Shown piece by piece: positions 20,206 through 59,180 of a DNA stretch of 64,000 nucleotides. The first letter of the stretch is position 1; every line of letters begins with the position of its first letter. The stretch is from the NCBI GenBank assembly GCA_021829835.1, contig JAKBPE010000003.1, positions 1 to 64,000 of the forward strand. Direction: 5' to 3'. The position numbers were made by a program, and so were the translations under genes. The notes under the pieces were generated by a model that worked only from the letters and a program-made list of their open reading frames with translations, was not told where the DNA came from and did not search any database. Source of the stretch: a bacterium. GTDB taxonomy: Archaea; Micrarchaeota; Micrarchaeia; Micrarchaeales; CABMGC01.

Positions 20206-20571
20206 CTAGTAATTCTCTTTTAATATGTTGGAATTTCCTGGAGAGAGCACTGCGAGGGCGTTTACTGAAAATGGTTTTCCGCATACTGTGCCGAGCTCAA
20301 GTGAATTTCCTGAAAACTTAAGCAGTTTTATCTGTGCTACTGAGCACATATGTATTATATCTTCTATTATCTCCTTCTTTCCTCTGGAAGATATGATGAC
20401 AGCCTGTACGCTTGAATCGTTTATGGCACGTATAACTGATTTGTTGCCTATCACAACCTTGCCTGTGTCCACGGCTAAACGTATATCATTGTTAATATCC
20501 GATATAAAATCACACTTTACTGATTTCAAAAGAATGCAGAAGCATCCGAATTGTAAGTATATTCTGTACAA
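20206..20571 (-). CDS. rpl30e: Ribosomal protein eL30
   Basis: DINNDIRLAVDTGKVVIGNKSVIRAINDSSVQAVIISSRGKKEIIEDIIHMCSVAQIKLLKFSGNSLELGTVCGKPFSVNALAVLSPGNSNIL. Confidence 0.88.
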   Translation of the reverse strand: MYRIYLQFGCFCILLKSVKCDFISDINNDIRLAVDTGKVVIGNKSVIRAINDSSVQAVIISSRGKKEIIEDIIHMCSVAQIKLLKFSGNSLELGTVCGKPFSVNALAVLSPGNSNILKENY

Positions 20572-22276: not shown

Positions 22277-23395
22277 TTATTTTATCAGGTAGAATATTTC
22301 AAGTATTATTTCGACGATTATGAGCACTATGACTATGCGTTCTAGGAATGCTTCATGCCAGAATGCCTCGATGTCTGAGATATATTTTCGTTCGTTGTCT
22401 ATCGCTTCCAGATCTTTTTCTATAGAGCTCTTGAGCACATCAAGCTTGAATACATTGGAAAATAGCGAATACACTCTTGAAAGATACCATTCGCCTAGGC
22501 CGAAGACAGTGTCATTTACATTATTTATTACGGTGCGTGTATTGTCATAGACGCTGCCCAGGGATCTGTTCATTTTTGCCATTTCGGAGTTTTTCATGCG
22601 CATGATTCCGGAATCCAATGAGTTAAGGACAGAACTGGATGATTCTAGCTTGACAGTGAGCATCTGGTGATATATTCGCATTTCTAGCAGTTGCAGATTG
22701 GATATCTCGGCTATTAGAAGCTCATGCTCGTAGGAATTTTCTTTGTCTATCATCACCGCGCCTTCCCATCCGACGAAAAGGACATTGCTTGAATTGTAAG
22801 AGATGTTTTTGCCGAGTATGTAGTCTATATATTCTGACTCTAAGGTATCCGCATGTACCTCGTCTATAAGCAAACCGGATATAAGCTTCTTTGATTTTAA
22901 AAGAATGTTCGATTTGTCACCTTCTAAATAGTAGAATTTATAGGTTTCGGAGATCTGATTTATGTTTATTTCCTTCTTTTTTGATAGAGCAGACGACACT
23001 TTTTTCTTTGTCTTGGATACTACTGCGTTGATGATGTCGTTTATCTCTTTATTGAAAGTCATCTTTGAGATAGTATCATTATTCCAATTTGCTATGGGAT
23101 ATCTTACCCTTATTGAGAATCCTCCGAATGGATATATAGCTACCTGCACTTTGAAATGGTATTCGGTGTTGCCTATTTTTTCCGTTTCTTCTTTGAGGTT
23201 GAATATGGAAGGAATGTTGAATGTTGCTATCTCTTCAGGCTCTGGTTTTGAGAATTCGTATTTTGAGAAGTCTTCAGGATTTTTAAGAAGGCCTGAAAGC
23301 TGGTCTTCGGTAAACCTGACTCCTGAGTCATACATAAACAAGTAGATTATTTCGCTGTTCATAAAGATATCAGAGCCATATTGGCACAATAACAT
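22277..23395 (-). CDS. RMD1/DUF155-like family protein, putative
   Basis: C-terminal EWYLSRVYSLFSNVFKLDVLKSSIEKDLEAIDNERKYISDIEAFWHEAFLERIVIVLIIVEIILEIFYLI resembles RMD1/YagE C-termini. Confidence 0.5.
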   Translation of the reverse strand: MLLCQYGSDIFMNSEIIYLFMYDSGVRFTEDQLSGLLKNPEDFSKYEFSKPEPEEIATFNIPSIFNLKEETEKIGNTEYHFKVQVAIYPFGGFSIRVRYPIANWNNDTISKMTFNKEINDIINAVVSKTKKKVSSALSKKKEININQISETYKFYYLEGDKSNILLKSKKLISGLLIDEVHADTLESEYIDYILGKNISYNSSNVLFVGWEGAVMIDKENSYEHELLIAEISNLQLLEMRIYHQMLTVKLESSSSVLNSLDSGIMRMKNSEMAKMNRSLGSVYDNTRTVINNVNDTVFGLGEWYLSRVYSLFSNVFKLDVLKSSIEKDLEAIDNERKYISDIEAFWHEAFLERIVIVLIIVEIILEIFYLIK

Positions 23396-23625: not shown

Positions 23626-23764
23626 TGGGGTTGTGGGGATTTGAACCCCAACTTGCTGGTTACTTCATTTTTCGGATTTCCAGATTTTCATCATCGCGTA
23701 TTAAAGCTCAAAAACCTATTAAATATCTGGAGCCAGCCGCGCTGCCAAGTTACGCAACAACCCC
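23626..23764 (-). tRNA. tRNA-Trp (CCA) with 66-nt intron
   Basis: Exon 1 GGGGTTG-TT-GCGTAACTTGGCAGCGC-G-GCTGG-CTCCAG (23764..23727); intron 23726..23661 between positions 37/38; exon 2 A-CCAGC-AAGT-TGGGG-TTCAAAT-CCCCA-CAACCCC-A (23660..23626). Confidence 0.92.
23661..23726 (-). ncRNA. Intron-encoded box C/D sRNA-like guide for C34 of tRNA-Trp
   Basis: Intron ATATTTAATAGGTTTTTGAGCTTTAATACGCG[ATGATGA]AAATCTGGAAAT[CCGA]AAAATGAAGTA. Box C (RUGAUGA), 12-nt spacer, D-like CCGA. TCTGGA is antisense to U33-A38, and the fifth nucleotide upstream of the D-like box pairs with C34. Confidence 0.72.
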
Positions 23765-59056: not shown

Positions 59057-59180
59057 CGCCAGGGTAGGGATTCGAACCCTAAAGCCCCGAAGGGCACTGG
59101 TTGGCTTGTTCGCATCACTAATCAGCTCTTGATGATTTAAATCTCAAGACCAGCGCGTTACCAGATTCTGCCACCCTGGC
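59057..59180 (-). tRNA. tRNA-Ser (UGA) with 40-nt intron
   Basis: Acceptor GCCAGGG/CCCTGGC, discriminator G73, anticodon stem CTGGT/ACCAG, loop CTTGAG^A, long variable arm GCCC-TTCG-GGGC, T arm TAGGG-TTCGAAT-CCCTA. Intron 59103..59142. BHB-like: 4-bp CTTG/CAAG flanked by AGA and CCA bulges. Confidence 0.88.

Follow-up and report, generated by a model that had tools for sequence, protein, structure and literature searches.

The 66-nt intron of the tRNA-Trp gene in the window (the whole 64,000-nt stretch of DNA analysed here) is very probably a single-guide box C/D RNA that directs methylation of C34 of its own tRNA and that was reduced from a dual-guide form. The gene, tRNA-Trp(CCA), lies on the minus strand at 23626..23764 and matched Rfam RF00005 with 46 bits; parsing of the exons and intron placed the intron between positions 37 and 38. 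From the sequence and this parse, the 38-nt 5' exon (23727..23764, minus strand) terminates in ...GGCTGGCTCCAG, its last bases CTCCAG being positions 32-37, with C34 at window position 23730. The 35-nt 3' exon (23626..23660, minus strand) starts with A38 C39 C40 A41 G42 C43 (ACCAGC...). The intron between them (23661..23726, minus strand) reads in full ATATTTAATAGGTTT-TTGA-GCTTTAATACGC-G-ATGATGA-AA-ATCTGG-AAAT-CCGA-AAA-ATGAAGTA and holds the box C/D guide. ARAGORN with default settings did not call the tRNA-Trp at 23764-23626 because of the intron.

The host genome is a Candidatus Micrarchaeota draft of 0.99 Mb in 38 contigs, 89% complete, and a DNA similarity search found a 99%-identical locus in Candidatus Micrarchaeota LSA5.bin106. 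A near-identical tRNA-Trp gene lies on another contig of the same draft (L061, G000:C8:1-120); it differs from the window gene mainly in the k-turn hairpin loop, and this second copy probably reflects strain variation. A 372-aa open reading frame that lacks a Pfam match (22277-23395, minus strand) adjoins the tRNA-Trp gene.

Conservation of the intron in the order

An earlier note on this DNA, made from the sequence alone, had described a 66-nt intron with the box C ATGATGA (23694-23688), exactly 12 nt (AAATCTGGAAAT) and a CCGA (23675-23672), and had predicted from it a box C/D guide aimed at the C34 of its own tRNA, a prediction that it made dependent on conservation in close relatives. All three elements were read directly here. 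By plain DNA similarity, in which the motif was not presupposed, homologous tRNA-Trp introns were found in about 50 of 60 relatives, and the arrangement NNGA-GC-loop-GC-N-RTGAY-NNNN-(N)TYTGGA recurs in 49 of the 50 introns parsed. The fiftieth (L058 in G048) keeps, by eye, a divergent version of the same design, with a GGC/GCC stem and 14 nt instead of 12 between the C and D boxes. The prediction is thus supported: the arrangement is conserved in relatives, NNGA is enriched at the +5 register, and the same guide occurs in stand-alone sRNAs of sister families.

A covariance model of the intron core matched about 140 genomes of families f1 and f2, which make up the order, at E < 1e-4. Elsewhere in the class it gave no strong match, and the two weak R1 matches that were inspected from outside the order, in G128 and G151, are stand-alone sRNAs rather than tRNA introns. 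In a pattern scan, nearly all records came from Micrarchaeota/Micrarchaeaceae, with the cultured Ca. Micrarchaeum A_DKE represented by its complete genome, and the remainder were four Thermoproteota and four bacterial matches. The bacterial matches (L088, L116, L128 and L164) were rejected as chance hits without tRNA 3' exons, and a looser pattern, CTCCARAN{20,50}CC, was uninformative. Nearly all genomes tested from the order keep the guide core TYTGGA and the k-turn, whereas the remainder of the intron can vary freely.

Two predicted local C/D motifs joined by one guide strand

The first motif comprises a D-type box TTGA (called D'; 23708..23711), identified in the homologue parse, the hairpin GC-TTTAATAC-GC (23696..23707) and box C, ATGATGA (called C'; 23688..23694), all on the minus strand. 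The succession TTGA, GC, loop, GC, 1 nt, ATGATGA is the standard k-turn layout of stem, 3-nt bulge and tandem G.A, here with the D half placed 5' and the stem capped by a hairpin loop. In every parsed homologue, from the set found without a motif pattern, NNGA is followed by GC. TTGA or ATGA was present in 110/120 distinct introns. The GC/GC hairpin was present in 120/120 and the box C core was ATGAT or ATGAC in all distinct introns except three with GTGAT, although the counts for box C and the GAGC/GC stem are circular in pattern-derived sequences. The third stem pair covaries (76 of 98 introns, against 42.6 in shuffles with a maximum of 57), and more distant introns carry the stems GGGC/GCCC, CCTC/GAGG, CTCT/AGAG and CTCGG/CCGGG at the same site. 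Box C and its D-type partner can thus form a k-turn, as TTGA-GC..GC-G-ATGATGA with a covarying stem. The earlier note had taken TTGA for part of a remote pair; instead, the GC..GC hairpin sets TTGA and ATGATGA side by side as the two halves of a single k-turn, already in the linear precursor. Four introns (L047, L048, L057 and L045) have an extra hairpin inserted at the 5' end, with the guide unit untouched.

The second motif is CCGA-AAA-ATGAAGT, in which the degenerate D box CCGA (23672..23675, minus strand) is followed after 3 nt by a degenerate C-type box (23662..23668, minus strand), as in a k-loop. RTGA follows the D box in 76/80 introns, most commonly at a spacing of 3 nt, where about 14/80 would be expected. 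ATGAAGT overlaps GAAG, the 3' strand of the splice-site helix, and its conservation in the Micrarchaeales clade is not independent of that helix. For TGAAGTA, which the earlier note had offered as a second box, support as a C box comes only from sister clades, where the motif is clear. What stands is at best a degenerate C box; what does not is its partner, which is the local CCGA. Both C/D motifs can form locally and are joined by a single guide strand, and the strand that would carry a second guide is broken by the tRNA body. Circularisation of the intron, required by the earlier note for a second box pair, is therefore not needed.

Guide register and target

The 12-nt guide region AAATCTGGAAAT (23676..23687, minus strand) was assigned from the register and pairing statistics. 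TCTGGA is, as the earlier note had it, antisense to U33-C34-C35-A36-G37 and the next A, and the G in the fifth position upstream of CCGA faces C34. The arrangement of box C, 12 nt, CCGA and C34 was reproduced 0 times in 400,000 shuffles of the intron. Across homologues, NNGA stood at the exact C34 +5 register in 80/120 distinct introns, where composition predicts 10.1 and shuffles gave at most 17, and in 26/31 representatives (<80% identity) against 2.6 expected. Because the search pattern did not specify the D box, the count is free of circularity. NNGA was absent from the exact position in 40/120 introns. A D box of the form CCGA rather than CTGA, noted earlier as unusual, is indeed present in the window; it is NNGA at that position, and not CCGA itself, that is conserved.

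Furthermore, two sub-clades both place C34 at +5, one with UCUGGAAN.. and NNGA, the other with the longer guide UUUGGAGCN and mostly NTGA. In the latter, shifted sub-clade (UUUGGAGC), NNGA, mostly NTGA, was found in 29/33. That guide and D box shift together is a strong sign of guide function.

The predicted methylation target runs from U33 to intron U+2 across the 5' splice site (23725..23731, minus strand), with the Cm predicted at C34 (23730). Over this stretch, the guide AUCUGGA pairs with U33-C34-C35-A36-G37-A+1-U+2 of the unspliced precursor, giving 7 bp. Intron nucleotide +2 pairs with guide nucleotide 10 in 113/120 introns, above every one of 2000 shuffles, and compensatory A-T, C-G and G-T combinations occur at these two positions in divergent and Thermoproteota introns. 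Guide nucleotide 10 could pair with position 39 of the spliced tRNA in only 9 introns; these pairing patterns therefore suggest that the unspliced precursor is most likely the target. In addition, the guide-target helix formed in cis around the k-turn in 5/6 computed folds, and the minimum-energy fold of the precursor contains it in cis.

Methylation would proceed as follows. In the unspliced pre-tRNA, TTGA-GC-loop-GC-G-ATGATGA would fold as a k-turn and offer a site for L7Ae, and CCGA-AAA-ATGAAGT would form a weak k-loop as a second L7Ae site. L7Ae, Nop5 and fibrillarin would assemble on the guide strand between the motifs (AAAUCUGGAAAU), the guide would pair with U33 to intron U+2, either in cis or with another precursor, and fibrillarin would 2'-O-methylate C34 opposite the fifth guide nucleotide upstream of the D box. 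The guide spans the 5' splice site and the 3' C box shares nucleotides with one strand of the splice helix, so methylation should come before splicing.

Methylation machinery

The host draft contains a fibrillarin gene and encodes two L7Ae-family proteins. An L7Ae/L30e-family gene lies in the window itself (20209-20571, minus strand), about 3 kb from the tRNA-Trp gene. No Nop5 gene turned up in the 89%-complete draft; every complete relative tested has one, so a real absence was rejected, and the gene probably falls in the missing part of the draft. We thus counted L7Ae, Nop5 and fibrillarin as available to the host, Nop5 by way of the complete relatives.

A second candidate self-guide in tRNA-Ser(UGA)

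The window has one other tRNA with an intron, tRNA-Ser(UGA) (59057-59180, minus strand; intron 59103-59142), and this intron reads ATTTAAATCA-TCAAGAG-CTGA-TTA-GTGATGC-GAACAAGCC. UCAAGA pairs with U31-A36 of this tRNA, and U34 lies opposite the A at +5 of CTGA. The core TCAAGAG-CTGA-TTN-GTGATGCGAA (as RNA, UCAAGAG-CUGA-UUN-GUGAUGC) is conserved in L335, from another genus, and in L375 from A_DKE, which belongs to another family, and the flanking hairpin changes by compensation (GATTT/AAATC, ATCC/GGAT, GTTTT/AAAAC). One C/D motif was seen in this intron and no C'/D' motif. From these pairings, the intron is predicted to be a self-targeting guide giving Um34.

Dual guides in introns and stand-alone sRNAs of sister families

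Dual-guide introns for C34 and C39, with CTGA or a variant, were found in L236, L237, L249, L253, L254 and L246. The longer sister-family introns, of about 80-114 nt, belong to f11, f19, f28, f17 and f9 (registers assigned by eye) and run in the order GCAGGT-NNN, 5' D-type box, k-turn, C34 guide, CTGA, 3-4 nt and 3' C box (e.g. GTGATGC). By eye, GCAGGT-NNN upstream of the 5' D-type box sets a G opposite C39 at +5. In f17, the 3' exon CCUGA and the guide TTAGGT show a matching change; the f9 intron has ATGA in place of CTGA, and the f22 intron is single-guide. In other families the tRNA-Trp introns measure 12-46 nt and lack a guide. Three Thermoproteota tRNA-Trp introns (L292, L293 and L141) carry, by eye, the same unit of k-turn and C34 guide, preceded by a further guide in which the +5 nucleotide stands opposite A38, not C39.

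Stand-alone dual-guide sRNAs for positions 39 and 34 of tRNA-Trp were found at ten loci (L263, L264, L268, L289, L230, L300, L301, L306, L308 and L310), in the form RTGATGA-..GCAGGTTTN-CTGA-..-TGATGA-NNNNCTGGAGCN-CTGA, with both guides in canonical order; a reversed-pattern control for this search was almost empty. They occur in f3, f4, f6, f7, f12 and f16, and at least the C34 guide occurs in f5, f18, f20, f21 and f26. In f12, the stand-alone guide ACAGGT matches that family's CCUGU stem. Families with stand-alone dual-guide sRNAs mostly have tiny tRNA-Trp introns, and in the order of the window no stand-alone Trp guide was found among the matches listed. A canonical stand-alone sRNA, TGATGAAGATCTTGAGTGCTGA, occurs in the host genome (L299, G000:C27 ~49805) and in many relatives; its guide is predicted to be directed at C34 of tRNA-Leu(CAA).

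Judged from these sequences, a single phylum carries the same guide pair either within a tRNA intron or in a gene of its own, and the order of the window has a reduced intronic form. Since sister families share the C34 guide in dual-guide introns and sRNAs, the window intron would be a reduced single-guide descendant; its ancestor would have been an archaeal dual-guide (34 and 39) pre-tRNA-Trp box C/D RNA from which the position-39 guide was lost.

Alternative explanations

The weak points of this reading are the degenerate D box and the guide duplex, which at 7 bp is shorter than the 8-10 bp reported to give high activity (PMC7089733). We weighed the view that the dual-guide ancestry is real but that the guide has decayed, no longer methylates and leaves the box C k-turn alone to persist. 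The lost position-39 guide, the NNGA in place of CTGA, its absence in a third of introns and the CTGA retained by the stand-alone sRNA L299 in the same genome all fit decay. Yet a decayed guide sits poorly with a TYTGGA core and k-turn retained almost throughout an order in which the rest of the intron varies, with a guide-D register held even in the shifted, longer-guide sub-clade, and with the lack of a stand-alone Trp guide in the order among the matches listed, and we consider decay very unlikely. We regard as similarly unlikely the view that the intron-exon complementarity and GAAG serve splicing alone, through a bulge-helix-bulge, with ATGATGA incidental. A splice-site helix is required, a GAAG-type sequence by the 3' splice site pairs with C32-C35, and the endonuclease of ARMAN-2, a Micrarchaeum, accepts relaxed substrates (PMC12397907). 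However, the guide lies about 20 nt from that helix, sister families splice 12-46-nt tRNA-Trp introns without a guide, the same guide is found in stand-alone sRNAs, and the +5 NNGA register, the covariation of the k-turn stem and the box C core have no splicing role.

Least likely is a dual guide that includes position 39 and is completed by circularisation of the excised intron. Published euryarchaeal introns do guide 34 and 39 and circularise, and in sister-family introns a guide for position 39 does precede the TTGA-type box. In 116 introns of the order, however, the segment upstream of TTGA matched positions 38-43 no better than shuffled sequence at any register (1.66 of 6 pairs against 1.85), and the strand that a circle would complete has no complementarity to position 39. 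The circular model for a second guide was thus rejected, and since the second guide is missing we class the intron as a single-guide variant rather than as the dual-guide form. A self-directed single guide for C34 remains our preferred reading.

Discussion

With these results, the predicted self-guided methylation of the tRNA-Trp wobble position reaches an order of ultra-small DPANN archaea, where it takes a form with one guide and a degenerate D box. The device itself is known in other archaea; what is new here is the stripped-down, one-guide version kept across an order. More tentatively, it is possible that Micrarchaeales tRNA introns are minimal cis-acting self-guides with one guide strand, the tRNA body replacing the second, as in Trp (Cm34) and Ser(UGA) (Um34, a single C/D motif in a 38-50-nt intron), and that in related lineages the Trp dual guide moved between intron and stand-alone gene. 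Carriage in an intron or in an sRNA gene within one phylum offers a natural experiment on the persistence of archaeal tRNA introns and on cis versus trans guidance. The cultured Ca. Micrarchaeum harzensis A_DKE has the same intron, which makes the prediction testable, and public RNA-seq exists for A_DKE (PMC8975820).

That tRNA-Trp introns act as C34 guides elsewhere, as the earlier note stated, is established in Haloferax and other archaea. The 103-nt pre-tRNA-Trp intron of H. volcanii guides Cm34 and Um39, must act before splicing and can be deleted with no growth defect, and guidance by pre-tRNA-Trp introns has been reported in at least 29 archaea (PMC2584109; PMC7994747; PMC4090602; PMC7714728). 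Cm34 of tRNA-Trp has been measured in S. acidocaldarius, H. volcanii and T. kodakarensis (PMC7668247), and methylation by fibrillarin at +5 and binding of L7Ae to k-turns and k-loops are described (PMC7089733). The window intron is like those of H. volcanii and Pyrococcus sR50 in the tRNA concerned, the 37/38 position and the box C/D elements, and in a C34 guide pairing that includes the intron, with methylation expected before splicing (PMC2584109; PMC7994747). Compared by their descriptions, the published introns are dual guides (C34 and U39) and longer (103 nt in H. volcanii), whereas those found here have a single guide, about 60-75 nt and a degenerate D box; the window intron thus shares the published C34 guide and lacks the dual-guide feature.

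Nanoarchaeum equitans, also a DPANN archaeon, has permuted C/D sRNAs and a C/D RNA in a tRNA-Met intron, which resemble the window intron in box D lying upstream of box C and in a C/D RNA carried by a 66-nt tRNA intron; the tRNA is a different one, and the permuted sRNA24 was found as a circle (PMC3491384). In a circularly permuted RNA of the sRNA24 type, a circle is needed for the box order; in the window intron both motifs can form as local hairpins in the linear precursor, and the broken strand carries no guide. The sister Micrarchaeota dual-guide introns (L236, L237, L249, L253, L254 and L246) resemble the window intron in having the C34 guide between the k-turn and the D box, followed by a 3' C box, and differ in the C39 guide added upstream of the 5' D-type box and in mostly keeping the canonical CTGA. 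The stand-alone dual-guide sRNAs differ in being separate genes with the order C-guide39-D'-C'-guide34-D, accompanied by a tiny tRNA intron, and share with the window intron the same guides, the 12-nt spacing and the +5 rule.
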